Below are positions 6,665-21,114 of a stretch of DNA of 21,114 nt, in pieces (the stretch's first letter is position 1; the number at the start of each line of letters is the position of its first letter). The position numbers and the translations under genes are program-made. The DNA is taken from positions 1 through 21,114 of the forward strand of contig CANNLO010000047.1 of NCBI GenBank assembly GCA_947505055.1, written 5' to 3'. The notes under the pieces were generated by a model that had not been told where the DNA came from, ran no database searches, and was given only the letters and a program-made list of their open reading frames with translations. This stretch comes from Methylococcaceae bacterium. Its GTDB lineage: Bacteria > Pseudomonadota > Gammaproteobacteria > Methylococcales > Methylomonadaceae.

Positions 6665-6718
6665 TTAATTTTTTTGTATTTAGACAAGGTCGCTAATAAG
6701 AACTTTAGGTATATATCT

Positions 6719-6979
6719 ATGAAATACATTTTTGCTTTAATTTTATTAATGATGAATCAATCAGTTTTTGCGAATGCATCGAACTGCTATTCAATTCAAA
6801 ATCAAGATAACAAGAATTACTGTCTTGCTACAGCTAAAAACGAAAAATCCTACTGTTATTCAATTCGTGAAAACGACACAAAAAACATGTGTCTAGCGCA
6901 AGTGAGCAATCAAAAGAGTTATTGTTACAGCATCAGGTCTAGTGACTTAAAAAATCAATGTTTAGGGATGGTTAAGTAA
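6719..6979 (+). CDS. Small secreted protein with three Cys-containing repeats
   Basis: This 86-residue protein has a clear signal peptide (M-K-Y-I-F-A-L-I-L-L-M-M-N-Q-S-V-F-A, cleavage likely after residue 18 or 20). The mature part is three copies of a 23-residue unit: C-Y-S-I, then D-x-K-N-x-C-L, then N-x-K-S-Y. The six cysteines follow a regular pattern (C-x11-C within a unit, C-x10-C between units), which would suit disulfide bonds in the periplasm. I chose ATG 6719, which begins the signal peptide and has a weak AGG at 6707-6709. The frame is open upstream to a TTG at 6674, but that would spoil the signal peptide. The molecular function is not known. It is oddly placed among cytosolic defence-type genes. 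Confidence 0.8.
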   Translation: MKYIFALILLMMNQSVFANASNCYSIQNQDNKNYCLATAKNEKSYCYSIRENDTKNMCLAQVSNQKSYCYSIRSSDLKNQCLGMVK

Positions 6980-7062: not shown

Positions 7063-10000
7063 ATGTCTGACGTGTTGTTGCGGCAAATTGAGATGTTGCG
7101 AATGATCCCTCGCAACAAGATGGTCACTACCAGCAAAATCAAGGCACGCCTTGAAACACTGGGCTATGTGATCACAGAAAGAACTATTCAGCGCGACTTG
7201 AATGAGCTTTCCAGAAAATTTCCAATTATATGTGATGACACAAAAAAACCTTATCAGTGGTCAATGACTGACGCCAGCCATAATCTTGACATTCCAAGCC
7301 TGGGAAGCGACGCAACACGCAGCCAACTTACATCGACAGAAGCCGCTCCTGAAATACAGCGTCGCTTGGACGATCTTGCAACACACCCAAAAACGATATT
7401 TTTTAGTTATGGTCACGACGATGGCAAAGAGTTGGTCCAATTATTCAAGCAGGACTTAGAGAAGCGTGGTCATCAGATATGGTTTGACGAGAAGGATATT
7501 GGCAATTGGGATGACTGGAAGGGTAAAATCACTCAGGGCATAGATTCCAGTCACATGGCCGTTGCCTTCATATCCAAGCATTCCATTCGTGATCCTGGAG
7601 TTTGTCGTAACGAGATTGCTATTGCGATGAATCGTTTCGGTACAGTTTATCCAATACTTATTGAAGATGGCATCGAGCAAGATATCCCCGTTACCATTCA
7701 GCATCTGCAATGGCCAGATCTAAGCCGTTGGAAGGATATTCGGAATGGCAAAGTGCCCGACATCGAATGGGATCGCTGGTACGAAGAAAAACTACTCAGT
7801 TTGATCGAGAAGATAGAAGGCGATGCCACGCGATTCTCCGACGAGACCCGTGTTCTCCAGCAGGTGCTGCAGCCCATCACTTCAGAATCCAAGATTGCCC
7901 AGCATGTACCTGGTTTTGTTGGCCGTGAATGGATATTTGATGCCTACAGCCAATGGGTCGATCATCAGCCAGAGTCACGTCTCTTCTGGATCAAGGCTGG
8001 GCCGGGCGTAGGCAAGACAGCAATCGCAGCGAACCTCGCCAACAGCAAGCGTGACGCTATTTGCGCTAGTTGGTTTTGCGATGCAAAGAGCAGTGAGCGC
8101 AGAAATCCGAATGCTGCCCTGAGGGCCATTGCGTTTCAACTGGCGCTACGATGGGAAGATTACCGTGTCAGACTTTTGAGAAGTCTTCAACTGTATGCCT
8201 GTGCTACAGATGTAACATGCGACAATGCCCGCGAAGAACTTGGCAAGAAAAACACGCAAGATTTATTTCTTTTACTGCTGGCTGAACCCATGGCTGGCCT
8301 TATCTGGCGCGGGCATAAACTGGTTGTTGTTATCGATGCCCTAGATGAAGCTACCAATGAACAGGGTAACAATCAGATCACAGAACTCATCAGTCGTGAA
8401 CTGGACAGCCTGCCAGACTGGATTGGCTTTGTCGTCACCAGTCGCCCTGAGGCCAAGATTGTCAATCGGCTGCGCCGGTTCAAGCCGTTTGAAATGAATG
8501 CGGAAGATCCGCGTAACTTGAATGATTTAAGAGACTGGTACAAGAAAAAACTCGGTAAGCGTTCGGAACTGAATGAATTATCTGAAGCCGAACAGAATCG
8601 CATCGAGGATCTGCTTATTGAAAGAAGTGAGGGGATGATTCTTTACCTCAAGATGGTGGAAGAAGGCTTCAAGGAGGAATCACTTTGCGTATCCAAACTT
8701 GAGGGCATGGGGTCTGGCTTGCCTGGCCTCTTTGATAGGTACTACGATAGCTTTCAGACCCGGTTTGGCGAGGATTATGAAATATCCGTCAAGCCGCTAC
8801 TGAGACTTTTTCTAGCAGCTGGTGGTCCCTTGCCAGAAGACTTAGTCAATGAGACGCTTAAGTGGAATAGCGAACAATTTCTGACCTGTCGCAACCGGCT
8901 TGGCAGTTATGTGATTCATACCGAACAGGGCTATGAGCTCTTCCACAAAACCCTAGCGGAATGGCTTGGAGATAAAACGAGCGCCCCGTTTTATATAGAT
9001 CGCTCATTAGGGCGGCAAAAGCTGGCCGATGTACTGTTTAAGGAAGTAGTTGTTAAAGAGAGTCATCAGGTGCGATGGAAAAATCTGGTTGAAGAATGGC
9101 TACCGGACTGGTTGCCAGAACTTTCTCAGCAAGACAATCCATTAGCAATTGGTAATCTAGGTCAAAAGCTACAGTATTGGGCAAACTACTCAAAGGCACG
9201 CCCACTTTTAGAGCTTGCATTGGAGATGCAGGAAAAAGTTCTTGGCCCAGAGCACCTTGATACTGCGACTGCCCTAAATAATCTGGCAGGTCTACTTCGC
9301 GATCAAGGCAAGCATGCCGAGGCAGAGTCTCTTTTGGTGCGAGCTCTGGGTATTTGTGAAAAAATACTGGGTACGGAACACCCAAACACAACATCATCCT
9401 TAAATAATCTTGCAGGCCTACTTCGCGATCAAGGCAAGCATGCCGAGGCAGAACCGTTTTATCGGCGCGCTTTGGCTATTCGTGAAAAAATTCTGGGCGC
9501 AGAGCACATTGATGTAGCCTCATCTCTAAATGGTCTTGCTGCTCTGTTTAATGAACAAGGTAATTATACCGAGGCAGAACCGCTTTATCGGCGCGCTTTG
9601 GCTATTCGTGAAAAAATTCTGGGCGCAGAACACATTGACGTAGCCTCATCTCTAAATGGCATTTCGATTTTACTTCGCAATCAAGGTAAGCTTGCGGAGG
9701 CAGAGCTGCTTTGTCGGCGCGCTTTGGCTATCCGAGAAAAAATTCTGGGCGCAGAACACCCCTATACAGCATCATCCTTAAATAATCTTGCAAGCCTACT
9801 CCGCGATCAAGGAAAGTATGCGGAGGCAGAACCGCTATATCAGCATTCTTTGAAAATCTGGGAAAAAACACTTGGTACGGAGCATCCTGATGTAGCGACT
9901 TCCCTAAATAATCTTGCGATGCTTCTTTGTGATCAAGACAAATTGGCTGAGGCGGAACCACTTTATAATCGAGCTTTGGCTATTTGGGAAAGAACATTGG

Positions 10001-10320
10001 GCGCTGAACACCCTAATGCAGCGACTTCCTTAAATGGTCTTGCTGGTCTCTTTCACGATCAGGGTAAGTATGCGGAGGCAGAACTGCTTTATCATCGTGC
10101 TTTGGTTGTTCGTGAAAAAACACTTGGATCAGAACACCCTTATGTAGCAACATCTATAAATAACCTTGCTAGTTTGTTTCGCGATCAAGGAAGATATGAA
10201 GAGGCCCATCAACTCTATCAGCGCGCTTTGGAGATTTATGAAAAATCCCTTGGTACGGCACATCCATATACAAAACAAGCGCGATTGGACTATGATAAAT
10301 TTATTGCAATTAACGGTTAG
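7063..10320 (+). CDS. HTH-TIR-STAND (NACHT-like) NTPase-TPR protein
   Basis: This 1085-residue protein is built like an innate-immune sensor. Residues 1-68 are a winged HTH 71% identical to the WYL regulator at 5135. A TIR domain follows at about 108-225 (I-F-F-S-Y-G-H-D-D; candidate catalytic Glu184 in C-R-N-E-I). A STAND/NACHT NTPase spans about 285-650 (Walker A G313-P-G-V-G-K-T319, Walker B V-V-V-I-D425-A-L-D-E, T-S-R-P-E at 459-463). About nine 42-residue TPRs of the kinesin-light-chain type fill 695-1075 (L-N-N-L-A, Y-x-R-A-L, L-G-x-E-H-P). TIR domains can cleave NAD+ or make cyclic ADP-ribose signals; STAND proteins oligomerise on sensing a trigger, usually through the C-terminal repeats. 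GAGGGGGAG at 7052-7060 precedes the ATG. The next gene starts five bases after the stop. Row 7801-7860 is 55% GC, higher than its neighbours. Confidence 0.9.
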   Translation: MSDVLLRQIEMLRMIPRNKMVTTSKIKARLETLGYVITERTIQRDLNELSRKFPIICDDTKKPYQWSMTDASHNLDIPSLGSDATRSQLTSTEAAPEIQRRLDDLATHPKTIFFSYGHDDGKELVQLFKQDLEKRGHQIWFDEKDIGNWDDWKGKITQGIDSSHMAVAFISKHSIRDPGVCRNEIAIAMNRFGTVYPILIEDGIEQDIPVTIQHLQWPDLSRWKDIRNGKVPDIEWDRWYEEKLLSLIEKIEGDATRFSDETRVLQQVLQPITSESKIAQHVPGFVGREWIFDAYSQWVDHQPESRLFWIKAGPGVGKTAIAANLANSKRDAICASWFCDAKSSERRNPNAALRAIAFQLALRWEDYRVRLLRSLQLYACATDVTCDNAREELGKKNTQDLFLLLLAEPMAGLIWRGHKLVVVIDALDEATNEQGNNQITELISRELDSLPDWIGFVVTSRPEAKIVNRLRRFKPFEMNAEDPRNLNDLRDWYKKKLGKRSELNELSEAEQNRIEDLLIERSEGMILYLKMVEEGFKEESLCVSKLEGMGSGLPGLFDRYYDSFQTRFGEDYEISVKPLLRLFLAAGGPLPEDLVNETLKWNSEQFLTCRNRLGSYVIHTEQGYELFHKTLAEWLGDKTSAPFYIDRSLGRQKLADVLFKEVVVKESHQVRWKNLVEEWLPDWLPELSQQDNPLAIGNLGQKLQYWANYSKARPLLELALEMQEKVLGPEHLDTATALNNLAGLLRDQGKHAEAESLLVRALGICEKILGTEHPNTTSSLNNLAGLLRDQGKHAEAEPFYRRALAIREKILGAEHIDVASSLNGLAALFNEQGNYTEAEPLYRRALAIREKILGAEHIDVASSLNGISILLRNQGKLAEAELLCRRALAIREKILGAEHPYTASSLNNLASLLRDQGKYAEAEPLYQHSLKIWEKTLGTEHPDVATSLNNLAMLLCDQDKLAEAEPLYNRALAIWERTLGAEHPNAATSLNGLAGLFHDQGKYAEAELLYHRALVVREKTLGSEHPYVATSINNLASLFRDQGRYEEAHQLYQRALEIYEKSLGTAHPYTKQARLDYDKFIAING
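9445..9658 (+). repeat. Near-identical 126-bp coding repeats in the TPR region
   Basis: The TPR part (about 9140-10300) has a 126-base (42-codon) period. The blocks 9445-9532 and 9571-9658 differ at about three bases, while other units differ much more. This indicates recent duplication or gene conversion within the probable sensor region. Confidence 0.8.
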
Positions 10321-10693: not shown

Positions 10694-12415
10694 ATGCCAT
10701 TTGATTCACTAGGGGAAATCCCCATCGTTTTTGCCGTTACAGGCCATAGAGATATCCCCTCTGAAGATTTTGATGGTTTGTCTAAGTTAATTTCTGCAAA
10801 GCTTAAACAATCTAAAACGGACTATCCTGATTCAACTCATGTGTTATTAAGTTGCTTGGCTGAGGGCGCTGACAGAATTGCGGCACAAGCGGCCCTAGAT
10901 GCCGGTTGGCAATTGGGCGCTATTTTGCCGATGCCAGAGTATGAGTATCTCAATGATTTTGAATCTAGCGAATCTAAAAATGAATTTCAGCGTTTAATAT
11001 CCGCCTCTAGTTTTGTCATGGAGGTCAGTTCATCATTACGGCCAGATTGCTATCTAGATGCGGGCAAATGGCTTTGTCGACGCGCTCAATTATTAATAGC
11101 GCTTTGGGATGGTAAGGACGGAAAAGTTGGTGGCACTGCTAATGTGGTGAAGATATTCCTTGAAGGCGACCCTAAATACAACGACAGCCCGGCAGTGCCA
11201 GATACAGGATTGGTTCATCACATTGTCACACGCAGACTTAGTGACCCTCAAGACTTACATAGCGCCAGCCCTAAAACTTTGTCACCACGGCCTGCTGGTT
11301 TGAAATTAGATAATGCTGGCGTTGAGAAAAAACGATGGGATGAGATATTTAAGCATATTGATAGCTGGAATAAAATTCATTCTGAATCAAAAAAAAATGA
11401 TGGAGAGAATAAAGTTGGCCTTGGACTTTATTACCCAAAGAGCGACGCAGATAGTACAAAGTATGGGGAAATCAATAAAAAACTTAAAGCTAAAATCAAT
11501 CAAAATCCACAATTAAAAGCTTTAGATTGCTTGTACCAAGCTGCTGATAAGCTTTCTTATGAAGCTCAGGAGAAGCGTAAGTCTAGATTTAAAATCATCA
11601 TTTTATTTGGCGCTTTAGCTATCCTTATGCAGCAGCTTTATTCCAGTGCATTTCCATATCCTGTCACGATGTGTATCGCTATAGCTTCGGGATTATTGAG
11701 CTATGGACTTTATTGGAAATCCCAGAGAAGTAAACTTGAAGAGCGCTATATCCATTACAGAGGGTTAGCAGAAGCTTGTCGTGTCCAATTTTTTTGGATT
11801 TTAATTGGGTGTAAAGATGATGTGACGGACCACTTTTTATTTGCGCAACGCAATGCCCTAGAATGGATAAGACAGGCAATAAGCACCATTGCTTTTTATG
11901 AAAACCCTACAACCGCTAATACGTTAGCAGATGTAAATTTGGTAAAAGATACATGGATAGAAGATCAATTTAATTATTTTATTGGGAATACAAACAAAGC
12001 TAAAAAACATGCTGATGATGGACGAAAATTCGACAATTGCACCAAGTACCTTATTTGGATTGGTTTATTTTTATACGTTGCAGTGCTATTCGTTCATATA
12101 TTTATGGGTGAGAGTTTAATTCCAATACTTAATCTAGTGTGTGGTCTTGCTTTAGCGGTAGCAGCTCTTTTTAACATTTGGAACGAAACAATGGCGCACA
12201 ATGAACATGCTACGCGCTATGAACGCTCAGGTTTGTTATTTGCCATTGCAGATGAAAGATTAGATGCCGCTATTAAAGGACATGGAATAGAACCAGGATT
12301 AAAATTGGCTTTAGCTCAAGAGATTATTTATAAAACAGGAAAAGAAGCCTTGGATGAAAATAGTGACTGGGTTTTACTGCATCAACAAAGGCCTGTTAAG
12401 GCCCCTGTTGGGTAA
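10694..12415 (+). CDS. SLOG-domain protein with four predicted membrane segments (SLATT-like C-terminus)
   Basis: This is a 573-residue probable membrane effector. The N-terminal 170 residues look like a SLOG (Rossmann-like, LOG/DprA-related) nucleotide-ligand domain: V-T-G-H-R-D, L-A-E-G-A-D-R-I-A, then A-L-W-D-G with G-G-T-A. Two hydrophobic pairs follow, at about 299-340 and 452-498. They are separated by a long helical stretch (S-K-L-E-E-R-Y-I-H-Y-R-G-L-A-E-A) typical of SLATT-type two-helix membrane modules. SLOG domains bind nucleotide-derived signals, for example in ThsA of Thoeris, and SLATT-type modules are proposed pore formers. It is the last gene of the operon that starts at 7063, five bases after the GIY-YIG-like gene. 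Signal binding and pore formation are inference from family and context. Confidence 0.8.
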   Translation: MPFDSLGEIPIVFAVTGHRDIPSEDFDGLSKLISAKLKQSKTDYPDSTHVLLSCLAEGADRIAAQAALDAGWQLGAILPMPEYEYLNDFESSESKNEFQRLISASSFVMEVSSSLRPDCYLDAGKWLCRRAQLLIALWDGKDGKVGGTANVVKIFLEGDPKYNDSPAVPDTGLVHHIVTRRLSDPQDLHSASPKTLSPRPAGLKLDNAGVEKKRWDEIFKHIDSWNKIHSESKKNDGENKVGLGLYYPKSDADSTKYGEINKKLKAKINQNPQLKALDCLYQAADKLSYEAQEKRKSRFKIIILFGALAILMQQLYSSAFPYPVTMCIAIASGLLSYGLYWKSQRSKLEERYIHYRGLAEACRVQFFWILIGCKDDVTDHFLFAQRNALEWIRQAISTIAFYENPTTANTLADVNLVKDTWIEDQFNYFIGNTNKAKKHADDGRKFDNCTKYLIWIGLFLYVAVLFVHIFMGESLIPILNLVCGLALAVAALFNIWNETMAHNEHATRYERSGLLFAIADERLDAAIKGHGIEPGLKLALAQEIIYKTGKEALDENSDWVLLHQQRPVKAPVG

Positions 12416-12571
12416 ATAGCCTGATTTAAAAATAATATTGATAGTTGTAAAGTACAGTTATTAAATTAATTACTATATTAATAGTTTACGTCAATGTTAA
12501 GTACGGCGAGTATCATGCTAGGATGTATTCATACAAAATCTTTGTTAATTATCAATTGAGTGGGAGTTAAA
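12416..12571 (+). promoter_or_regulatory. AT-rich intergenic region, likely promoter of the seven-gene operon
   Basis: This 156-base gap is the only sizeable one before the operon from 12572 to 20840, so the main promoter should lie here. TTGATA at about 12438-12443 followed after 17 bases by TTAAAT is a possible weak sigma-70 promoter. No copy of the CGACA/TGTCG palindrome is present, so this operon is probably under different control. The ribosome binding site GGGAG is at 12562-12566. Confidence 0.35.
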
Positions 12572-13294
12572 ATGGCACAAGAACCAGTTCAGAAGGTAAA
12601 AGGGGTTGTCGACATCGTTTTCCTTATCGACATATCTGGTAGCATGGGGCCGTGTATCGAGGCTTTGAAAACCAATATTGGAACATTCACGGCCACCATG
12701 GCTAACCCTGATCCAAATGGAGGATCTCCAGTTAAGGATTGGAGAATTAAGGTTGCCGGCTATAGTGATTTCATGGCTGATGGCAGTCAGTGGTGGGTTG
12801 AATTCCCGTTCGTAAATGATTTGACCCAAGTTACTTCAAATCTATCCTCGCTAAAGCTAGTAGGTGGTGGCGACTTGCCCGAGTCACTTCTTGATGGTCT
12901 CTACAAGATTGCAAAGATGCCCTCAACAGAGAAGAGCGATAGTGCCGAATCAAATAGTTGGCGACATAGGCACAACGCAGCTAGGGTAGTTATATTTTTT
13001 ACCGACGCAGAGTTTCATCCAACACTGTCAATACCAGAAGCTCCTGGTGCAATGTTAGATGACGTGATTAGAGAGCTGCAAAATTCAAGAATAATTCTTT
13101 GTGGTTTCTGCCCAGAACATGAGTGCTATAACAAGCTTTCAGAGTTGGATAAGAGCGTAATTGAGTTTGTTGGGACGATTTCTGATGCTGTTGCCAAGAT
13201 GGGCGAATACACTAGCGACACAAAAAACTTCCAAGAGACGCTCAAGGCGCTCGCTAAAACCGTTAGTCTATCTGCAGAAGTTGTTGCCCTCTAA
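12572..13294 (+). CDS. vWA (MIDAS) domain protein, TerY-like
   Basis: This 240-residue protein is essentially one von Willebrand factor A domain. The metal-binding MIDAS motif D20-I-S-G-S24 is intact, and the later acidic site is D145 in F-F-T-D-A-E. Such domains bind partners through a divalent cation. Stand-alone vWA proteins (TerY type) are known to sit beside kinases and phosphatases in Ter-linked modules, which fits this operon. I chose ATG 12572 with GGGAG at 12562-12566; an in-frame GTG at 12560 would overlap that site. C-terminal Cys and His residues (G-F-C-P-E-H-E-C) may be structural. It is the first gene of the operon, 18 bases before the kinase gene. Confidence 0.85.
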   Translation: MAQEPVQKVKGVVDIVFLIDISGSMGPCIEALKTNIGTFTATMANPDPNGGSPVKDWRIKVAGYSDFMADGSQWWVEFPFVNDLTQVTSNLSSLKLVGGGDLPESLLDGLYKIAKMPSTEKSDSAESNSWRHRHNAARVVIFFTDAEFHPTLSIPEAPGAMLDDVIRELQNSRIILCGFCPEHECYNKLSELDKSVIEFVGTISDAVAKMGEYTSDTKNFQETLKALAKTVSLSAEVVAL

Positions 13295-13312
13295 CATCAA
13301 AGGTAATAAGGC

Positions 13313-14617
13313 ATGCCAATAAAACTAAAGCCGGGGAACAAAAAAACATCCCCCAAATCAACGTACGAAATTGTTCGGGAATTAAACCAAGGGATGTTTG
13401 CTTCTTCTTATGAGGCAAAGTCGGCGCTTGGAAGGCGTGTATTCTTTAAAGAATACAAATCTCCTACCCCTACAGTATCTTGGTACAGAGGATATGTTGA
13501 GTATCAGACTGAAATAAAAAAGAGAATTGAATTGGATCCTGTCACTAGAGTCAGGACATACGAGTTCATCGATTTTTTTGAAGATAAATTTTTCTATCAG
13601 GTATTCGAATTTGTTGAAGGGGGTATGTCCTTACAGGGTTGCCTAGATAAGTTAAGAGACGCTGCGAGCGCCGCTTCTTGGAAGGATCGCGTTTATTTTG
13701 CTCGGGTAATGATGGCGGGGATTGCCGGATTCCATGCTCTTAAGATTATCCATACGGACCTCAAGCCTGACAATATTTACTTAATCCCAAACAAGGATAG
13801 CGCGGGTGATTATTACCTGAGAATTATTGATGTTGATTTTGCAATCCTCCAGGATAAGCAGGCTCCATGGCACGGCGTAAATGGATATGTAGGTACACCT
13901 AAATATCAGTCCCCAGAACATTTGCGTGGCGAAATTCCAACACCTGCATCTGACACGTTTACTTGTGCGCTAATGCTTTGTGAATTACTTGGTGGAGGCC
14001 ACCCTTTTAGGAAAGAGGAAGATTATGGAAATTCTATATTGGCCGGTGACAAGTTTATTCCATTCAAATTAGAGCAGTCGATCAATAAGGTTGACGACGT
14101 TGCATTTCTTGAAGGGGTGATTAATACATGTTTCAATCCAGATCCAGAAAATAGGCCAACAGCCAGACAGGTTGCCGATGCACTTTTGGGCAAAAAATTT
14201 GAGTGGATTATAACTCCTACAACTGCCCCATCTCCTGTAATTACGCCTACGACATCCCCTGTGGTAACGGACCCTAAACCTAGCCTATCGACTACTGATA
14301 AGTCGGTTGCTATTAGTTTTGGGGGGAAGCAATTAACACTGATCAATATCGATTCCGAGTTCGGCAAGAGGACATTTAAAGGCGTTCATGATGATGCCCA
14401 GTTTCTGAGCGAAAAGCAATTCAGGATATATCGAGATCCTGCTACGAAGTGCTGGCTAATTTCTCATGAAACATCAGCCACCAACGAGACAATTGTTAAT
14501 GGTTCTAAATTGGTAGCACCAGTTTCCGTTGCTGATGGGATGCGCATTGCCGTAGGAAATTCTGCTAAAGGTATTGAGAAATTTACTCTTACGCTTAATT
14601 TAGTAGTAAAGGAATGA
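13313..14617 (+). CDS. Ser/Thr protein kinase with C-terminal FHA-like domain
   Basis: Residues about 20-295 form a Hanks-type Ser/Thr kinase. The ATP-binding Lys46 (V-F-F-K), catalytic loop H147-T-D149-L-K-P-D-N154, metal-binding D175-F-A and the G-T-P-K-Y-Q-S-P-E activation segment are present. All key residues are therefore kept, although HRD reads HTD and DFG reads DFA. A Thr/Pro-rich linker (about 296-325) leads to an FHA-like domain (about 330-434). In it the usual S-x2-H is S-E-K-Q and the N-G-T-x-V-N-G core is N-E-T-I-V-N-G, so phosphothreonine binding is uncertain. No membrane segment is seen. The phosphatase gene begins one base after the stop, so the two are probably made together and act on the same targets. 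Confidence 0.92.
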   Translation: MPIKLKPGNKKTSPKSTYEIVRELNQGMFASSYEAKSALGRRVFFKEYKSPTPTVSWYRGYVEYQTEIKKRIELDPVTRVRTYEFIDFFEDKFFYQVFEFVEGGMSLQGCLDKLRDAASAASWKDRVYFARVMMAGIAGFHALKIIHTDLKPDNIYLIPNKDSAGDYYLRIIDVDFAILQDKQAPWHGVNGYVGTPKYQSPEHLRGEIPTPASDTFTCALMLCELLGGGHPFRKEEDYGNSILAGDKFIPFKLEQSINKVDDVAFLEGVINTCFNPDPENRPTARQVADALLGKKFEWIITPTTAPSPVITPTTSPVVTDPKPSLSTTDKSVAISFGGKQLTLINIDSEFGKRTFKGVHDDAQFLSEKQFRIYRDPATKCWLISHETSATNETIVNGSKLVAPVSVADGMRIAVGNSAKGIEKFTLTLNLVVKE

Positions 14618-14618
14618 T

Positions 14619-15755
14619 ATGGAAAGCTCCGCTTTTAATGCATTCAGGGAAATACGTCGCGAAATCGCATCATTGTGGAATCAACTGAATCGTGATTTGA
14701 ACAAGGGAGGCTCACCAGATTTTCCTCTACTTTATGAAAACGAGCTTTCTAAAGTCGTGATCATGAAACCTGAAACCTTTGGGAAACCTGAGAACTGGTT
14801 TTTCATTGGAGATATTCATGCGGATTTTTTTGCGTTACACACACTCCTAAACTCCATCAAAAAACAATGTCCCGACTTCAGGCTTGTTTTCATGGGTGAC
14901 TTGGTGGATCGTGGGGAGCAACCAGTTGAGTGTTTCTTTCTACTATTGCAATGGGCAAAGGAACATCCGGAGCGAATTATCTGGTTGGCGGGAAATCACG
15001 ATATCGCTTTTACTTATGACAATCAGCAAAAGCAGTTTGTTTCTTCCGTTAGGCCTTCAGAGTTTCTAGACTTTCTGAATATAGATGATGAAATGCAAAG
15101 CTTCCGTAAATTATTGGGAGACTTTTTGGTCAAACTTTCTGGAATGCTACCTAGGGCGGTACTTTTCCCCGACGGTTTACTTGCAACGCATGGGGGGTTC
15201 CCGTTGGTCGACAAGCAGGAGTCCGCTAAAAACTTCTCTAAAGTTGAAGAGATTATGACATGGCTCAATTCTCCAGAATGCCTTCAGGACTTCACTTGGA
15301 CAAGAATTGCTAAATATCCCAAGCGCTCACCTAACCGTTCATCAAAGGGCTGCTCTTACGGTTTCCAGGACTTCGAGGCTTTCTGCAATCTCAAGCCAGA
15401 CTTATTTCCTGTGAAACGAATGATTACTGGGCACGAGCACCCTGAAACAGGATGGCAAGAATTCTCAAGTTATATATTAAACCCCAGCGCTACGATCTGT
15501 GGATTTGGCTTTGATTATATGTTGGAAGCACCAGAAAAATTTTATAGGTACAAACCTAAGCTGATGCTAGGACGATACCGCAAGGATCAGCTACCTGAAC
15601 CAATTGAGATAGATTATTCGGTTGAAGAACTACATAAATTTTACCCTCCCATTAAGCCAAATGATCCAATGACGTCTGCTTCCATTGATCCTCCTGTGGT
15701 CGATGAGTCGATTGGTGAGAGAACGTCGACTACGTCAATCAGTCATCCCCAATAA
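14619..15755 (+). CDS. PPP-family metallophosphatase (Ser/Thr phosphatase-like)
   Basis: This 378-residue protein is a calcineurin-like phosphoesterase of the PPP type, expected to remove phosphate from Ser/Thr using two metal ions. The metal ligands and signature motifs are in order: G-D65-I-H67-A-D, G-D94-L-V-D-R98-G, G-N126-H127-D128, H191 in A-T-H-G-G, and H272 in G-H-E-H. All are intact, so it should be active. The C-terminal tail (about 340-378) is low in complexity and rich in Pro/Ser/Thr. The gene follows the kinase by one base, with AAAGGA at 14608-14613. Kinase and phosphatase next to each other suggest reversible phosphorylation. Related vWA-kinase modules usually carry a PP2C enzyme, so a PPP enzyme here is a variation. 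Confidence 0.92.
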   Translation: MESSAFNAFREIRREIASLWNQLNRDLNKGGSPDFPLLYENELSKVVIMKPETFGKPENWFFIGDIHADFFALHTLLNSIKKQCPDFRLVFMGDLVDRGEQPVECFFLLLQWAKEHPERIIWLAGNHDIAFTYDNQQKQFVSSVRPSEFLDFLNIDDEMQSFRKLLGDFLVKLSGMLPRAVLFPDGLLATHGGFPLVDKQESAKNFSKVEEIMTWLNSPECLQDFTWTRIAKYPKRSPNRSSKGCSYGFQDFEAFCNLKPDLFPVKRMITGHEHPETGWQEFSSYILNPSATICGFGFDYMLEAPEKFYRYKPKLMLGRYRKDQLPEPIEIDYSVEELHKFYPPIKPNDPMTSASIDPPVVDESIGERTSTTSISHPQ

Positions 15756-15760
15756 ATGCC

Positions 15761-16639
15761 ATGAGTTCTGGCCTTAAACTCGTATTTTACGAAACAGACG
15801 TCACTACAATCAATGTTGAAACCTTAGTAGGCAAAGCTTTATTGAAAAATCTTGGGGATGATGCAAAGTTCGTCAGCACGAAGCAGTTCAGAATTTTCAG
15901 GAATCCCAGCTCAGGAAAATGGAGTATCGAGCATGATTCTTCGGCTCAGAATGAGACCCTTCTTAATGGCGACACCCTAACAGCTGCATCAGAGCTTAAT
16001 GATGGCGATGAAATTTCAATAGGTAATGCCTCTAAGGGTATCAAGAAAATGCCATTGCAGGTGCAAATCGCCGGCGAAGCAACAATACTATTGACTCCTC
16101 CATTAGTGGCTAGAATGGAAGAGCCCTCCACTTCTAAAGCTTCACATCTTCCTTCTGACCTTGAAGTTAGTAGCACTCTAGCTCATAAAACTGGCGCTTT
16201 GATGCTTGTCTGGCTTAAAGCCGTTTGCATGTCGTTACTCACAATTGCTGGGTACTTTCTTGGAGCACTGGCAGGTGGTGTGATTGGAAGTAATGCAACT
16301 CTAGTCAGGAAAGGGCGCTCAACTTTTGGGGAAGTTATTCTGAACATCAAAGACTGCAAAGTTAGGCAAGGTCGATCAATGTTTGGCGAAGTGCAGATGA
16401 CGATAGTTGGTGAAAAAATCCATCGGGGCAATTCATCGATGTTTGGAGAGGTCCTGGCGCATGTAAATGGCGATAGGGTTATCTCCGGAAACAATATTTT
16501 TGGTGAGGTAATAGCAAAGATTGATGGCAATCACGTTATCAAAGGCAATGCCCTAATATTTGGCGATGTGATCGCTAATGTTGAAAACGGTGGACGTATG
16601 TCTGCGGCTGCAGCCGCAGTGTATTTACTACTAATGTAG
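15761..16639 (+). CDS. FHA-like domain, membrane segment and G-E-V repeat protein
   Basis: This 292-residue protein starts with an FHA-like domain (1-108) closely related to that of the kinase at 13313. Shared segments include K-Q-F-R-I, N-E-T and G-N-A/S-x-K-G-I; the canonical His is again Gln. One or two hydrophobic helices follow (145-177), ending in a Gly-rich stretch. Residues about 178-280 hold five units of about 20-22 residues with the core F-G-E-V or F-G-D-V and alternating I/V. These look like short beta-strands that could form a solenoid or stacked sheet. The last residues are Ala-rich and hydrophobic. It may be a membrane-anchored scaffold recognising a phosphoprotein. The start lies five bases after the phosphatase stop with no clear Shine-Dalgarno sequence, so translation is probably coupled. 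Confidence 0.8.
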   Translation: MSSGLKLVFYETDVTTINVETLVGKALLKNLGDDAKFVSTKQFRIFRNPSSGKWSIEHDSSAQNETLLNGDTLTAASELNDGDEISIGNASKGIKKMPLQVQIAGEATILLTPPLVARMEEPSTSKASHLPSDLEVSSTLAHKTGALMLVWLKAVCMSLLTIAGYFLGALAGGVIGSNATLVRKGRSTFGEVILNIKDCKVRQGRSMFGEVQMTIVGEKIHRGNSSMFGEVLAHVNGDRVISGNNIFGEVIAKIDGNHVIKGNALIFGDVIANVENGGRMSAAAAAVYLLLM

Positions 16640-16678
16640 TGAGAAAACTTTAACCAATTTTTATTTTAAGGGGTCTAT

Positions 16679-18100
16679 ATGTCAATAAAATTGCAAGCGG
16701 GTGAAATAGTTAATGGCTATGTTATAGAGCGCCATCGTGACCTTGGCGGATACTTTTCCCTTTATGACACTCACAAGGAATTCCATCCAAGTAGCCTTTT
16801 TCAGTTTAGATCTCCTAGTATAAATTCCGATTGGTACCAGCTTTATATCGATCACTTAATTGAATTAAAAGAAATAATTTCTAATAGTAGTTTAAAAAAT
16901 ATAACTGAGCATGTCCTTGATGTTTTCTCAACGAAACATTCTTCCCTTTGCTATGTAACTGATCGATTATCTGCATCTCTGGATGAGTACCTTGAATTGA
17001 CAAGGTCGATAGGAGATTTGATAGGAGTTGCACGAGAATTAACAAAGAATGTTGCCGCAATGCATGATGCTGGCTTAACTCTTGGTGCTTTCTCCCCATC
17101 TACAATTAGAGTTCAGCAAAATGGTGGCAAATGTAAACTCTTGCTATCACATCTGCACTGGGTTCATATTCGAAATAAACCATGCCCATGGGATACAAAA
17201 TGGCAGTTCATAGGATATTCATCACCAGAATTACAAACCCCCGAAGGTGGACCAATATCGACAGCATCGGATGTTTTTACTCTTGGTGTAATTATTGTGG
17301 AATTACTTACAGGAAAAAACTGTTTCATAAACAATGATACCTCCTTGGAAGAAGCGCTTGCTGAAAGTTATGTATTAATAGAAAAGATTGATGGCCTAGA
17401 CAAGAGTTCTTCTCAAAGTATACTGGCTCGTGCTTTAGATCCCAATCCTCAAAACAGGCCAAGCGCCCACGAAATTATAAAGATATTCCCTAGAGATATT
17501 TCCGAGAGTTCAAATGATATTATTCTGATTGATAAGCCCGTTGAGAGGTCTTTGCAAGCACTAGCCTTCTGGGTTGCTTACCAAAATGGAAGATATCGGC
17601 ACCACTCTCTACCAGAGGGCGCCATTGTTTCTGAGTTAACATGCCTTTTGTCCGGGGATGTCAAAGGTCAGCTCACAATTGAGCGTGAGTTGATGTATAA
17701 GGATTTATTGGAAGGTAAGCCATGGGATACCAAGGTGCGAGCCGATTTGGCAATCATGCCTTCTGAGCCAGAAAAGCGTGGTGTTCCTGTTGCATTAATT
17801 GAAGTAAAACGAGCTGACGCTCCTTGGCGTGAAATTGAAGGAGACCTCATTGCGCTAAATCATTTTAAATTACTTTCACAAAACACTCTAACCCTATTGG
17901 TTGTGGTCGCTCAAGCTCATAGACCTAATCAGTGGGTTAGCCCCAATGGTGTTTCTCCCAATGAAATTGAAACTATTCAAATTCAAGAAGAGGATAAAAC
18001 CGTTGATATCAGATATAAAGTCCGAAGAGTCCTTAAAGCTTCAGGCTCTTTCAAGATGGTGGATAGTGCATGCTATTGCTGTCTTATTGAGGTTCTATAA
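16679..18100 (+). CDS. Pseudokinase fused to a PD-(D/E)XK-like nuclease domain
   Basis: Residues 1-280 keep a kinase fold pattern (activation-segment-like G-Y-S-S-P-E-L, S-D-V-F-T-L-G-V-I-I-V-E-L-L-T-G, N-P-Q-N-R-P-S-A). The catalytic residues are gone: the H-R-D-x-K-P-x-N loop reads L135-G-A-F-S-P-S-T142 and the D-F-G site reads S157-H-L159. It is therefore a pseudokinase. Residues about 290-473 carry D356-L-A-I and, 18 residues later, E375-V-K377 on a hydrophobic strand, the pattern of PD-(D/E)XK nucleases. Shortly before them is a conserved-looking E-R-E-L-M-Y. AAGGGG at 16668-16673 precedes ATG 16679. In this operon it could be the effector, with the pseudokinase half reading phosphorylation or binding the active kinase. 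The nuclease call is good on motif but untested. Confidence 0.8.
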   Translation: MSIKLQAGEIVNGYVIERHRDLGGYFSLYDTHKEFHPSSLFQFRSPSINSDWYQLYIDHLIELKEIISNSSLKNITEHVLDVFSTKHSSLCYVTDRLSASLDEYLELTRSIGDLIGVARELTKNVAAMHDAGLTLGAFSPSTIRVQQNGGKCKLLLSHLHWVHIRNKPCPWDTKWQFIGYSSPELQTPEGGPISTASDVFTLGVIIVELLTGKNCFINNDTSLEEALAESYVLIEKIDGLDKSSSQSILARALDPNPQNRPSAHEIIKIFPRDISESSNDIILIDKPVERSLQALAFWVAYQNGRYRHHSLPEGAIVSELTCLLSGDVKGQLTIERELMYKDLLEGKPWDTKVRADLAIMPSEPEKRGVPVALIEVKRADAPWREIEGDLIALNHFKLLSQNTLTLLVVVAQAHRPNQWVSPNGVSPNEIETIQIQEEDKTVDIRYKVRRVLKASGSFKMVDSACYCCLIEVL

Positions 18101-18127
18101 CTTTTTGCGAAACCCAAGGAAACGAAA

Positions 18128-19378
18128 ATGGCAGCACCAAATGTAGATATTGTTTTTGTGATTGATGCTAGCGAGAGCATGAGACCATGCTTTGAGCAGT
18201 TGCGACAGCATCTCTCGGAAGTTTATGCTCCCATGCAAGGACTTGTTAGCAAGGTTCGTTTCGGGATGGTGGCTCAGAGTGTTGGCTCAACTGGTGGCGT
18301 GGTGATGTTCGATCATCAGTTTCTCTGTGGATCAGGTCCCGATGCGATGAAAAAGCTTTATAGCAAAGCGCCAAACGACACGGATACCCAAAACGAATTC
18401 CTCACGGACAATTCAGAGAAACTCAAACAGTCACTCAGCGTTTTAAAGCCTCAAGGCAACGAGGACATGCTTGTCGCTCTCGATATAGCGCTTGACTTCC
18501 CTTTTGGCTCCCTAAGCAACACAAAACGTGTGGTAGCTCTATTCTCAGATGAGTCATTTGAGGGGGGTATTTCTAAGAGTGCCAACAATGAAAAAATACC
18601 GGACTTGATCCAAAAGATTCAGAACCGGCATATCCAACTCTTTTGCGCTATTCCTGATAGTGCCGCAATTCAGAAGATTGCTGAGGTGGACCGTTCTGAG
18701 ATTGAGCTTGTAGATGGCGGCGGCGGCTTGTCAACAGTTAACTTCAGGCAATTACTTGGACAGATGGGCAAAAGCATCAGTGGTTCAATGTTGCAGTCGG
18801 TTTCAGAGCCCGCTTACAAGCGAGCCATTTTCGGACAGGACACATGGGGAGAGTCTCGAGCTCTCTCCGCCACCAATAGGGATGTAATTCTCAGCGTTGG
18901 CGAGTCGGCCAATCTAGACGATTCAGGGCCGATCAAGAATATCCATGTCCAGTTGAACTGGACTCGCGCAATTGATCTTGACTTACATGCTTTCTTTAAA
19001 AACCGACGAGGACAACACAGACATCTTTATTTTGTTAATCGACACACGCCCATAGACGGAGTTAGCTTAGATAATGATGCAGGTGTTGGGGATAGAGGCG
19101 GCCAGAATGTAGAAAACATAAATGTGAGCGATATTGATGCTATTGAAGAAATTCTTTTTGCTATAAAAATTTTCGGCGATGGTGAAAGGTTCTGCGATTA
19201 TGATGCCCGAGTCGTGGTTGACACAGGGAATGGCGAGAAATTTATTGTACCTCTGACTTCAAGCGATTCAGCAACTTGGTGTGTCATTGCAAAAATAAGC
19301 AATCACCCAGGGAGGTCGCCCAAAGTTGTAAACGTTAATTGCATCATGGAGGAAGAGCCGACTGTAGATTCGGTTTGA
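18128..19378 (+). CDS. vWA domain fused to a TerD-like domain
   Basis: Residues 1-215 form a vWA domain with MIDAS D13-A-S-E-S17 and a later acidic site in L-F-S-D-E-S. Residues about 270-400 resemble the TerD family: W-T-R-A-I-D-L-D-L-H-A, V-S-L-D-N-D-A-G-V-G-D-R-G-G, and I-E-E-I-L-F-A-I-K-I-F. TerD domains bind Ca2+ through such Asp-rich loops and occur in the Ter stress and tellurite-resistance systems, where TerD-vWA fusions (TerF type) are known. The linker (about 215-265) is unassigned. AAGGA at 18116-18120 precedes ATG 18128. This gene is the strongest link between the operon and Ter-type systems. A role in tellurite resistance itself is not implied. Confidence 0.82.
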   Translation: MAAPNVDIVFVIDASESMRPCFEQLRQHLSEVYAPMQGLVSKVRFGMVAQSVGSTGGVVMFDHQFLCGSGPDAMKKLYSKAPNDTDTQNEFLTDNSEKLKQSLSVLKPQGNEDMLVALDIALDFPFGSLSNTKRVVALFSDESFEGGISKSANNEKIPDLIQKIQNRHIQLFCAIPDSAAIQKIAEVDRSEIELVDGGGGLSTVNFRQLLGQMGKSISGSMLQSVSEPAYKRAIFGQDTWGESRALSATNRDVILSVGESANLDDSGPIKNIHVQLNWTRAIDLDLHAFFKNRRGQHRHLYFVNRHTPIDGVSLDNDAGVGDRGGQNVENINVSDIDAIEEILFAIKIFGDGERFCDYDARVVVDTGNGEKFIVPLTSSDSATWCVIAKISNHPGRSPKVVNVNCIMEEEPTVDSV

Positions 19379-19394
19379 TCCAGGATATATCTTA

Positions 19395-20840
19395 ATGATA
19401 TCAACTAAAAAAGATAAACTTATTCGATTAGGGCAGATTAAGGCTGAGTGTGATGAAGCATTTATGTGCATCAGTCATGGCCTCCCAATGCCTTGTGATA
19501 TCTGTGATGCTGAATCCGATGACCATGCACCACATGCGGCTAAGTGTAGCAAATGTGGGTATAGCAACAGATCATCGCGAGGTTACTTATCTGGAAAAAA
19601 ACACCCGTGTCATTCCATTGAGAAATATGATGAAACAGGCCACATTGCATTTGATCCTGATCCTGAAATTTTAAGGGCAGAACATGAGAAGCAGCTGCGA
19701 CGTGAAAGAGAGGCTCGTGAGCGTCGAGAACGGGTTGAACGGGAACGTCTAGAGCGCGAGAGAATTGAACGGGAACGTCTAGAGCGCGAGAGAATTGAAC
19801 GGGAACGTCTAGAGCGCGAGAGAATTGAAAGAACAACCAGAGGGCACGGGGATGGAGCAAAAACTGGGATATTTTCACCTAGAGGTTTTAGTTTTATCTT
19901 AATTCTCCTTTTTTTGGCGTACATAAGTTTTTTTAAGAAAGATCATACTTATAGTCCTCCAAAAGAATTGGATTCAACAAAACTTCAGGAGGATATTAAC
20001 CTATCGTCGACCAAAGAAAGCTCGCTTGTTGCACAAGAACTTTTACGTCAGGACGACGCCTTAAGGGCTTCAGAATCTGTTATTAATGGTCTTGAGCTCG
20101 ACGCAGTAGTCAAATCAATGTCGCCTGAAGACCTCAAGCTCTTAGTCAGTAGCGGAAATAAAAAAGCAATTTTGGCGCAGGCGCTAGAATTAGCTACCCA
20201 AGGTTACGATGAAGCTTTACAGGCTTTTTCCAAGATAAAAAAACTGGCTGATACTGGATTTTCTCCAGCGCAGTTCTTCACTTCCCAAATGTACTATAAC
20301 GCTACTGGGACTGAGCTTGATAACACCATGGGGCTTGCCTATCTGCGTGAATCCGCAAATAGTGGTTACCCTCGAGCAATGTATGATCTAGGTGTTCGGC
20401 TCGTTGAGGGTAATGGTGTTAAGGATAATATAAAGGCAGCAATTAAGTGGCTTAGTCTTGCTAAAGATGCAGGCTCTTCCGAAGCTACGATTCTACTCGA
20501 TAAATTGCTTATTCAATCAACTCCTCAGTCGATACAAGCCATCCCCTCTAATCAAGCTAATGTGATTAGGCCGCAAGAGACGCAAAATATGTCACCAGGT
20601 GGTTATTCTCCAGATAACGCTCAACCAGAAGCTGTTTATGAAGCAAAATTCAAAGGAGTTTTCGGAATAACTATTGAAGAGAGGCTCTACCCGACAGAAG
20701 AAATGAGAGAAAATGCATTAGAATTGTGGGCCAGTGAAAGAAAAATTCTAGAACCGGATGGCACAATTAATGAAAAGCATGTTGTGAAACAACCTGAATC
20801 TAATAGCAGTTACCAGGATTTCATTAACAGTTATCATTGA
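19395..20840 (+). CDS. Zn-ribbon-like, coiled-coil, single-TM, Sel1-repeat protein
   Basis: This 481-residue protein has four visible parts. Residues 19-75 carry paired cysteines (C34-x2-C37 and C51-x2-C54, with nearby His and Cys) that look like a zinc-binding knuckle. Residues about 92-147 are a highly charged Arg/Glu helix, a likely coiled coil or single alpha-helix, encoded partly by an exact DNA repeat. One membrane segment follows at about 164-180. The C-terminal part has Sel1-type repeats (A-x-F-F-T-S-Q-M-Y-Y, G-L-A-Y-L-R-E-S-A-N-S-G, A-I-K-W-L-S-L-A-K-D-A-G) at about 260-370, then a Pro/Gln-rich region and an unrecognised end. Sel1 repeats mediate protein contacts. As the last operon gene it may be a membrane scaffold. 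AGGA precedes ATG 19395. Confidence 0.82.
   Translation: MISTKKDKLIRLGQIKAECDEAFMCISHGLPMPCDICDAESDDHAPHAAKCSKCGYSNRSSRGYLSGKKHPCHSIEKYDETGHIAFDPDPEILRAEHEKQLRREREARERRERVERERLERERIERERLERERIERERLERERIERTTRGHGDGAKTGIFSPRGFSFILILLFLAYISFFKKDHTYSPPKELDSTKLQEDINLSSTKESSLVAQELLRQDDALRASESVINGLELDAVVKSMSPEDLKLLVSSGNKKAILAQALELATQGYDEALQAFSKIKKLADTGFSPAQFFTSQMYYNATGTELDNTMGLAYLRESANSGYPRAMYDLGVRLVEGNGVKDNIKAAIKWLSLAKDAGSSEATILLDKLLIQSTPQSIQAIPSNQANVIRPQETQNMSPGGYSPDNAQPEAVYEAKFKGVFGITIEERLYPTEEMRENALELWASERKILEPDGTINEKHVVKQPESNSSYQDFINSYH
19735..19829 (+). repeat. Perfect 30-bp tandem repeat, about three copies, coding
   Basis: A 30-base unit (starting GGGAACGTCTAGAGCGCGAG) occurs at 19741-19770 and 19771-19800 and again at 19801-19829, identical apart from the final base. 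It is preceded by a partial copy from 19735. The unit is ten codons long and encodes the Arg/Glu helix R-E-R-L-E-R-E-R-I-E. Perfect identity at the DNA level indicates recent expansion and probably copy-number variation between strains. It keeps the frame whatever the copy number. Confidence 0.92.
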
Positions 20841-21092
20841 TGTTTGGGGGATCTTAATAAATGTAGGGTTTTATGTGACCGTCCGCTTAGGGTCGGAAGT
20901 GACGAAATTAAGTGACTGCTTTATGCAAAAATATCGTTTGTGGTGTGTCAGAAAAGTATATTTCTTCAATGATTTTACTTAGCCGGCATTCATGAAGATG
21001 AATAGGGTTGAATTTTAGGTTAGGCTCATAATGAACTCATACGAACAAGACATGTTGTCAGTTCAACCAGTTAAAGACTTTGGAGAATTATT
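20841..21092. other. Intergenic region between the defence-like operon and pqqA
   Basis: I see no convincing gene in these 252 bases. The region should hold the pqqA promoter and possibly one island junction, but I can identify neither with confidence. There is a short hairpin at 20988-21003 (ATTCAT-GAAG-ATGAAT). TTGAAT at 21008-21013 and TAATGA at 21029-21034 are only 15 bases apart, a poor promoter. No terminator with a T-run follows the last operon gene. Confidence 0.5.
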
Positions 21093-21114
21093 ATGTGGAC
21101 TACACCAGCAGCTA
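21093..21114 (+). CDS. pqqA: Coenzyme PQQ precursor peptide PqqA, N-terminus only (cut by window edge)
   Basis: The last 22 bases encode M-W-T-T-P-A-A, after GGAG at 21082-21085 with seven bases to the ATG. PqqA is a peptide of roughly 23-30 residues whose Glu and Tyr are joined to make pyrroloquinoline quinone, and many begin M-W-T-x-P-A. The diagnostic E-V-T-x-Y part lies beyond the window, so the call rests on seven residues and the ribosome binding site. A competing frame from ATG 21031 is also open to the edge but looks less like a known protein. Confidence 0.55.

Follow-up and report, generated by a model that had tools for sequence, protein, structure and literature searches.

Phospho-switches that pair Ser/Thr kinases with phosphatases occur in several described bacterial systems. 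In the TerY-P triad, a vWA protein and a PP2C phosphatase accompany a kinase with a C-terminal Zn ribbon or OB fold. Some TerY-P-bearing operons are described as containing extra vWA genes, and modules resembling TerY-P as acting against phages on their own (PMC11090510). In KKP (PfkA-PfkB-PfpC), an antiphage toxin-antitoxin, the toxin role is assigned to the kinases and the antitoxin role to the phosphatase in phage defence (PMC11341870). The T6SS threonine phosphorylation pathway comprises PpkA, which carries a vWA domain, together with PppA and Fha1. PppA is a PP2C enzyme. The parts of this pathway are described as acting at the inner membrane (PMC3224232). Kinase, PP2C and stand-alone vWA genes have also been linked to GAP1-N2 systems (Kaur et al. 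2020, PMC7159879).

Here, a seven-gene operon from a Methylococcaceae bacterium is described that shares parts with each of these systems. It lies on a stretch of 21,114 nucleotides, hereafter the window.

Organisation of the operon

Seven consecutive + strand ORFs span positions 12572-20840, separated by 18, 1, 5, 39, 27 and 16 bases (Table 1). They encode a vWA protein, a Ser/Thr kinase-FHA, a PPP phosphatase, an FHA-TM-beta-flower protein, a pseudokinase with a D...ExK nuclease-like part, a vWA-TerD protein and a Cys-rich/coiled-coil/TM/Sel1 protein. An earlier note on this DNA had listed the same seven genes with gaps of 1-39 bases, and ORF and Pfam searches confirmed the gene set, packing and domains that it had observed. 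The start of gene 1 was taken as ATG, with a GTG at 12560 also possible.

Table 1. Features of the operon and its leader (positions in the window)
Feature	Position	Strand	Description	Support
Upstream intergenic stretch	12416..12571	+	156 bases; leader of gene 1	
Gene 1	12572..13294	+	vWA protein, 240 aa, with DxSxS motif	PF00092 1.8e-6
Gene 2	13313..14617	+	Ser/Thr kinase (HTDLKPDN) with divergent C-terminal FHA (about 14309-14617)	PF00069 2.4e-25
Gene 3	14619..15755	+	PPP-family (calcineurin/PP1-like) phosphatase	PF00149 (Metallophos) 8.9e-16
Gene 4	15761..16639	+	FHA (about 15761-16069), hydrophobic segment (about 16190-16291), 6-fold beta-flower (16304-16591)	Pfam and hydropathy
Gene 5, whole ORF	16679-18100	+		
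Gene 5, N-terminal part	16679..17530	+	Pseudokinase akin to the kinase of the module	PF00069 5.9e-9
Gene 5, C-terminal part	17531..18100	+	PD-(D/E)xK nuclease-like by motif	E319, D356, E375xK377 invariant
Gene 6	18128..19378	+	N-terminal vWA and TerD-like domain (about 18881-19375)	PF00092 1.8e-6
Gene 7	19395..20840	+	Zn-ribbon-like, Cys-rich N-terminus; charged stretch resembling a coiled coil; hydrophobic segment (about 19863-19940); single Sel1 repeat (20370-20477)	

Upstream, the TIR-STAND genes that the earlier note had placed near the operon are present at 7063-10320, followed by two further genes and then the leader. The leader is likely the promoter region of the operon. Promoter-like sites across 12300-21114 did not exceed chance (13 found, 18.0 expected), and no direct repeats of at least 20 bases flank the operon within the window. 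An integrase-like gene, recognised by eye, precedes the operon, as do the TIR-STAND genes. PADLOC gave no specific match for the seven operon proteins; its hits were to kinases in a generic way, plus a weak one for gene 3 (PDC-S10, E 0.00047).

Protein domains

The kinase of gene 2 retains HTDLKPDN and is active-looking. Its FHA domain falls below the Pfam cut-off (0.0027), and alignments of both the kinase and the FHA were made. Canonical FHA domains bind phospho-threonine through GR, SxxH and NG motifs (PMC1262709). In the eight aligned sequences, the His of SxxH is replaced by Gln in every case, so that H is kept in none and S in four. GR survives in one, the Arg being Lys or Gln in the other seven, and the Asn of NG is aligned in all eight, but the residue after it is Glu, Ala or Pro. 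The two FHA domains of the module had been called odd, and these altered phospho-threonine residues show in what way they depart from the canonical type.

PPP phosphatases are the classic protein phosphatases of eukaryotes. In gene 3 and its relatives, the metal motifs GDxHxD, GDxxDRG, GNHD and HGG are invariant across 28 aligned sequences, which places the protein in the PPP family, and a PDB search with the PPP profile returned calcineurin and PP1 as best matches, calcineurin at the top. In NCBIfam, the nucleotide hydrolase ApaH matches best, at 36.9 of 176 bits and so far below the cut-off; proteins are thus a candidate substrate class for gene 3, not a proven one.

Gene 1 is about 49% identical to the vWA proteins of nine Rhizobium/Microvirga modules. 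TerD (PF02342) is unmatched in gene 6 of the window itself and is matched in 4 of 16 full-length relatives (best 2.2e-8); a PDB sequence search for TerD returned no TerD chain. Gene 6 also has a TssR_VWA match below cut-off, and PADLOC matched neither vWA protein. Among the proteins with hydrophobic segments, gene 4 matches FHA (5.9e-5) and Bflower_3 (3.9e-19) in Pfam, and gene 7 matches Sel1 (2.3e-9). A Zn site in gene 7 is weakly supported, by a Zn_ribbon_RanBP match below cut-off (E 0.012).

Gene 5 couples a degenerate kinase to a putative nuclease. The VAIK Lys, the DLKP Lys and the following Asn are lost in all 11 sequences of the family (the window's and 10 relatives found), and the HRD Asp in 8 of them. 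E319, D356, E375 and K377 of the C-terminal part are invariant in the same 11, which gives the conserved D...(D/E)xK pattern of PD-(D/E)xK enzymes and bears out the pseudokinase with nuclease residues D356, E375 and K377 proposed earlier, the nuclease being assigned by motif. This domain has no match in Pfam, PADLOC or PDB sequences, profile search included, and is a probable nuclease on its PD-(D/E)xK motif alone. Against 72,556 plasmids at E 1e-5, gene 5 matched only the kinases of the same modules (8/8 records), which suggests that the pseudokinase arose by duplication of the kinase inside the module.

Recurrence in other genomes

The core order vWA - kinase-FHA - PPP, read by coordinates, recurs in 9 of the 72,556 plasmid records (Rhizobium, Microvirga), these being all nine with a PPP match, and again without inserts in a Rubrivivax order genome (G029). 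A Rubrivivax MAG has the order with inserts: vWA - STK-FHA - 134 aa Cys-rich+FHA - PPP - vWA - Cys-rich+TM+FGE. In all six insert-free loci checked (five plasmids and G029), the core is followed by a small Cys-rich TM gene, in two pieces in L107. No other genome or plasmid among those searched was found to carry all seven genes. The five plasmid copies read and G029 contain no relative of gene 7 or of the nuclease, TerD and beta-flower halves, so the nuclease is not a general output of the module. Each plasmid module has a single kinase.

Members of the PPP and gene 6 families have longest contigs of equal length in nine pairs, on 8 contigs, with 1.1 expected, equal length being no proof of adjacency. 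The module was found in 0 of 218 genomes in the family of a Sinorhizobium genome and in 0 of 301 in the order to which a Methylococcaceae genome belongs; among 398 genomes from the same phylum as the Rubrivivax genome, the one hit was the genome already known. Scanning genome contigs with the PPP alignment picked up generic PPP motifs, in at least 590 stretches and at least 158 relatives, from which 80 loci were kept. Only one of these (L001) aligns along most of the query (residues 59-354, 36%), and none of eight genomes chosen via the kept loci matched the PPP alignment. Viral contigs held 24 PPP-like loci (24-38% identity), none for the pseudokinase-nuclease and none for vWA-TerD; phages gave 17 records with partial kinase matches only, none covering 80%.

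A tblastn search (E 1e-3) of seven related places matched none of the nine upstream proteins of the window. A wider system that includes the TIR-STAND genes was rejected on this ground. PADLOC on 10 neighbours of related copies found nothing except a group II intron reverse transcriptase matching RT models. The reading of the locus in the earlier note therefore stands in part: this is a packed phospho-signalling operon whose core order is kept in distant genomes, while the exact seven-gene set has not been seen elsewhere and proximity to TIR-STAND genes is not conserved in the seven places searched.

Comparison with described systems

Like TerY-P, the module has a vWA protein beside a Ser/Thr kinase (genes 1 and 2) and a Ser/Thr phosphatase in one operon, with Cys-rich, Zn-ribbon-like parts that here sit on separate proteins. 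Unlike TerY-P, it has PPP rather than PP2C, no PP2C family appearing among the matches listed for 16 window proteins, and the C-terminus of its kinase is FHA-like, not a Zn ribbon or OB fold. It also adds a second FHA protein and vWA-TerD, pseudokinase-nuclease-like and beta-flower proteins. Since PPP and FHA take the places of PP2C and the Zn ribbon, the module lies outside the TerY-P definition, as a relative built from different parts, much as had been proposed, down to the nuclease-like domain on the pseudokinase. It probably works like TerY-P all the same.

KKP likewise combines two kinase-fold proteins with one phosphatase. However, its phosphatase is PF13672 (PP2C), whereas the second kinase of the present module is dead and bears a nuclease-like domain, leaving one Ser/Thr kinase and additional vWA, FHA and TerD parts. 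The T6SS pathway shares kinase, phosphatase, FHA and vWA parts, but the vWA of the module is a separate protein and its phosphatase has the PPP fold; no T6SS family is above cut-off among the matches listed for the 16 window proteins. GAP1-N2-linked genes also join kinase, phosphatase and vWA; they differ in using PP2C, in kinases that carry a Zn ribbon or TM, in GTPase context and in being actinobacterial. Among defence kinases, MADS mad6 matches gene 2 best in both PADLOC and NCBIfam, yet the match covers the kinase domain only, at 67 of 460 bits and far below the NCBIfam equivalog cut-off, and no other MADS model is among the PADLOC matches listed (10 proteins). The accessible text of the BREX paper PMC12839542 contains nothing on a vWA - kinase-FHA - PPP module. 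TerY-P, KKP, T6SS and MADS were each rejected as the identity of the module, given these departures from their defining features, and it is filed with TerY-P/KKP-type phospho-switches as a distinct form.

Possible mechanism and alternative explanations

The preferred reading, tentative and held at somewhat less than an even chance, is a membrane-tethered phosphorylation switch whose output would be the nuclease-like domain of gene 5, kept in check by its pseudokinase. The switch would consist of a kinase-FHA, a PPP phosphatase and a pair of vWA scaffolds, with gene 4 (FHA-TM) and gene 7 (Zn-ribbon-like-TM) as its membrane tethers. In the resting state, PPP would keep the targets of the kinase dephosphorylated. 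A stress or invader signal, perhaps entering through the beta-flower, TerD, vWA or Zn parts, would shift the balance to the kinase, and FHA and vWA domains would collect the phosphorylated partners. This assembly could free the nuclease-like domain from the pseudokinase of gene 5, and the freed domain may cut DNA or RNA and so halt growth or phage replication. In favour of the proposed switch are the core order kept in other loci, the catalytic motifs that kinase and PPP retain, the invariant D, E and K beside lost kinase residues in gene 5, the duplication suggested by its plasmid matches, the contig-length pairs of PPP and gene 6 and the antiphage precedents of KKP and TerY-P-like modules. 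Against it stand the absence of the nuclease half from the plasmid copies read and G029, the altered phospho-threonine residues of the FHA domains, the ApaH match of gene 3, a nuclease call made by motif alone and the lack of a specific PADLOC match. A defence role is plausible but weakly supported, since the module recurs without its TIR-STAND neighbour and the PADLOC matches are generic.

Alternatively, though this is rather unlikely, the operon may signal stress in general, or metal or envelope stress, a role proposed for Ter systems, and have no part in fighting phages; the nuclease-like domain would then bind or process nucleic acid in repair. TerD and vWA domains, Cys-rich proteins and Sel1 and TM parts would suit such a role, and TerY-P triads are tied to tellurite resistance, with a metal-sensing phosphorylation switch as the hypothesis (PMC11090510). 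For the copies on rhizobial megaplasmids, the few neighbours scanned also included no recognised defence gene. However, the patchy spread (0/218, 0/301, 1/398) fits a mobile conflict gene set better, and in the window the operon comes after the integrase-like and TIR-STAND genes.

A toxin-antitoxin of the KKP kind is improbable. Kinase and pseudokinase would then be the toxin and PPP the antitoxin, broad protein phosphorylation would do the damage and the C-terminal domain of gene 5 would be auxiliary. The logic of two kinase-like proteins and one phosphatase is the same, and KKP toxicity requires both kinases, but gene 5 is without catalytic residues, whereas both KKP proteins are treated as Ser/Thr kinases in the accessible part of PMC11341870, which also makes no mention of vWA. 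The phosphatase is not PF13672 either, and plasmid modules have only one kinase. That the operon regulates the neighbouring TIR-STAND genes as one larger system is very improbable: they share a strand, with 156 bases from the last upstream gene to gene 1, but the operon has a separate leader region and 0/9 upstream proteins have a relative in the seven related places.

A fuller version of the preferred switch is itself doubtful. The operon would then be a conflict system without a name so far, in which a kinase-PPP switch, scaffolded at the membrane by FHA and vWA domains, gives licence to a nuclease gated by a pseudokinase. The dead copy of the module's own kinase would act as a phospho-sensing lid, and interchangeable outputs (nuclease, FGE enzyme, TerD) would be set on the conserved vWA - kinase-FHA - PPP core.

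If true, the PPP, kinase-FHA and vWA operon would show that phospho-switches of the TerY-P and KKP sort can also be built on another phosphatase fold, and the pseudokinase-nuclease, as the likely output, would allow the gating of a nuclease by a pseudokinase to be put to the test.

Operon layout and surroundings

A packed phospho-signalling operon of seven genes, as proposed in the earlier note, is borne out: its consecutive open reading frames are separated by 18, 1, 5, 39, 27 and 16 bases, and 156 bases precede gene 1. Several other features lie upstream of it. A near-identical HTH sequence, recognised by eye, opens both the WCX-type regulator and the TIR-STAND-TPR protein; the latter looks, by sequence, as if fused to the DNA-binding part of a regulator. 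The YAcAr/DUF4231-like membrane protein is possibly a partner of the TIR-STAND gene. The window's last bases resemble the start of what we take to be pqqA.

Features of the operon and of the region upstream, with the basis of each assignment
Feature	Position	Strand	Description	Basis
Integrase-like protein	3-1709		Upstream of operon; C-terminal motif	By eye; Pfam nothing useful
NUDIX protein, then double AAA protein			Upstream of operon	Pfam
WCX-domain regulator	5135-6178		Upstream of operon	Pfam
Repeated stretch	6288-6631		151 bases, 82% identity, spacing 193 bases	
Small Cys-rich repeat protein	6674-6979		Directly after the 151-base repeat	
HTH-TIR-STAND-TPR protein	7063-10320		Upstream of operon	Pfam
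Two proteins with T5orf172 and YAcAr/DUF4231 matches			Between TIR-STAND gene and operon; below cut-off	Pfam
Of these, YAcAr (SLOG-like) and DUF4231-like membrane protein	10694-12415		After TIR-STAND gene; both below cut-off	
Seven-gene operon	12572-20840	+		
Gene 1		+	vWA protein	Pfam
Gene 2		+	Protein kinase; weak FHA match at C-terminus	Pfam
Gene 3		+	Metallophos protein	Pfam
Gene 4		+	FHA, hydrophobic segment, then Bflower_3	Pfam; hydropathy
Gene 5		+	Weak kinase match, then domain without match	Pfam
Near-invariant YCCLIEVL	18050-18097		C-terminus of gene 5 family	
Gene 6		+	vWA protein	Pfam
Gene 7		+	Sel1 protein	Pfam
Repeats in gene 7	19735-19829		Three identical 35-base matches, 30-base spacing, encoding a charged stretch	

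Conservation of the core module

Conservation of the gene order, a check suggested in the earlier note, holds for the core of vWA, kinase-FHA and PPP genes but not for gene 7, which has no tblastn match at the related loci (five plasmid copies, G029 and a Rubrivivax MAG). Among 72,556 plasmid records searched with tblastn, nine match gene 3 (seven Rhizobium, two Microvirga). The same nine stand out among the 29 records that vWA matches at an E-value of 10 or less, being the only ones with about 49% identity over 97% of the query; in the other 20, identity is at most 29.7% where coverage exceeds 40%. A kinase match covering at least 80% of the query is likewise found in 9 of the 317 plasmid records with a kinase match, again these nine, which are also the only ones matched by gene 4, via its FHA part. 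Their coordinates place vWA, kinase-FHA and PPP on one strand and in that order in all nine.

Five of these copies were retrieved (L106, L107, L108, L110 and L111). Downstream of PPP, all except L107 have a Cys-rich gene of about 190-196 aa; in L107 it is in two pieces (two frames). The four intact versions have a strongly hydrophobic C-terminal segment (computed), and Zn-ribbon matches in the three copies scanned are below cut-off. The L107 copy (L107:6275-10256, Rhizobium leguminosarum RCAM0610) may be broken, misread or affected by sequencing errors, because its kinase annotation is split and its PPP match partial.

Outside plasmids, G029, a genome of the Rubrivivax order, encodes vWA (49%), kinase-FHA, PPP and a Cys-rich gene (L109, L116). 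The Rubrivivax MAG has the core with inserts (L001): vWA, kinase-FHA, a 134 aa Cys-rich and FHA protein, PPP, vWA, and a Cys-rich, TM and FGE-sulfatase protein, with the Cys motifs in the 134 aa and FGE-sulfatase proteins judged by eye. Genes 4, 5 and 6 find matches at the related loci only to their FHA, kinase and vWA parts.

Domains of the encoded proteins

In gene 2 the HTDLKPDN motif is retained and DVD stands at the DFG position, so that an Asp is kept; relatives have HTDLKP or HADLKP, with DMD. Gene 3 is a predicted PPP-type phosphatase, since its metal motifs (GDxHxD, GDxxDRG, GNHD, HGG) are invariant across 28 aligned sequences and calcineurin and PP1 are the best PDB matches of its profile. 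In NCBIfam it is closest to ApaH, though far below cut-off, so nucleotide substrates would also be conceivable.

Gene 5 aligns to gene 2 across the kinase domain. In all 11 gene 5 family sequences the VAIK lysine (Arg in four), the DLKP lysine and the next Asn are lost, and in 8 the HRD aspartate. E319, D356, E375 and K377 are invariant in all 11, in agreement with the earlier proposal of the last three as nuclease residues of a pseudokinase. The C-terminal 189 residues of the window protein have no match in Pfam or PADLOC; apart from two chance-level matches, whole relatives hit only kinase families in Pfam, and a profile built from 8 sequences of the domain finds nothing among PDB sequences; the domain is therefore called a candidate nuclease by motif. 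Y466, C467 and C468 are also invariant in 11/11.

The FHA domains are indeed odd, as had been noted. One divergent group unites those of genes 2 and 4, of two Rubrivivax proteins and of four plasmid kinases; in it the canonical GR, SxxH and NG motifs (as given in the cited part of PMC1262709) are changed: GR is present in 1/8, the S of SxxH in 4/8 and its H in none (Gln in all eight), while at NG the aligned Asn persists in 8/8 but with Glu, Ala or Pro after it. These domains could thus still read phospho-threonine, though in an altered way. The second half of gene 6 is putatively TerD by transfer from relatives, PF02342 matching 4 of 16 full-length relatives and not the window protein itself. 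The charged stretch of gene 7 is possibly length-variable.

Distribution of the gene families

Protein searches returned 203 PPP relatives, 210 vWA-TerD or vWA relatives and at least 11 proteins of the gene 5 family, one being that of the window; this last count is a lower bound, as scoring was limited to the 7997 candidates with the most shared words. Shared contigs were approximated by equal size of the longest contigs among the matches listed (120 PPP, 119 gene 6 family, 10 gene 5 family), against a null of lengths jittered by 10% over 2000 rounds. PPP and gene 6 families coincide in 9 pairs on 8 contigs versus 1.1 expected (maximum 5); each coincides twice with the gene 5 family versus 0.14 expected (maximum 3). 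This suggests that the three families share contigs, with adjacency not implied and both gene 5 counts small.

Within taxa the module is rare. Around the Rubrivivax MAG, the PPP alignment matched 2/300 genomes of its order (the MAG and G029), 1/398 of its phylum and 1/250 of its family (the MAG in both); elsewhere it matched 0/301 in the order to which a Methylococcaceae genome belongs, 0/7 in the family of genome G602 and 0/218 in that of a Sinorhizobium genome; vWA-TerD alignments matched 1/250 and 1/81 (itself). In this search only a few top candidates in each genome are scored; runs including genome G001 recovered it, and the three empty runs had no known member as control.

Known systems and a possible role in defence

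In the passages cited here, TerY-P combines a TerY-like vWA protein, a PP2C-like phosphatase and a kinase with a C-terminal Zn ribbon, and an OB-fold variant is reported to be antiphage (PMC11090510; commentary PMC7699616). KKP pairs PF00069 kinases with a PF13672 phosphatase (PMC11341870), GAP1-N2 systems are also accompanied by kinase, PP2C and vWA genes (PMC7159879), and a T6SS pathway combines PpkA (with vWA), PppA and Fha1 (PMC3224232). The suggestion of an undescribed system survives in part: no title or abstract start among the matches listed contains a vWA, kinase-FHA and PPP module, but the operon is placed as a variant of the TerY-P/KKP kind.

A defence role, which we infer, has slightly less than an even chance. 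It is favoured by the KKP and TerY-P precedents (in the cited parts of PMC11341870 and PMC11090510), the patchy spread of the module, an antitoxin (TacA-like) paired with an acetyltransferase close to the L111 copy, and a DUF4062 gene some 15 kb away from the module in the Rubrivivax MAG; according to the cited part of a preprint, DUF4062 proteins are TIR-like NADases and include an antiphage system (PMC13174449). The TIR-STAND neighbours in the window also count for it, but the nine upstream proteins have no match in the seven related places. Moreover, PADLOC gives no specific match for any of the seven proteins, nor for 10 chosen neighbours of related copies, except RT models (group II intron reverse transcriptase).

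Beside the Rubrivivax module (L113:516-15816), the opposite strand carries a Tubulin_2 protein together with three large proteins that Pfam does not match; an IS transposase lies in between and the DUF4062 gene further upstream. PADLOC matched 0/5 proteins there.

In summary, the operon, whose mechanism we infer, is a compact module for phospho-signalling that belongs, as a variant, with TerY-P and KKP; its core is conserved, and the putative pseudokinase-nuclease appears to be a rare addition in the window copy.
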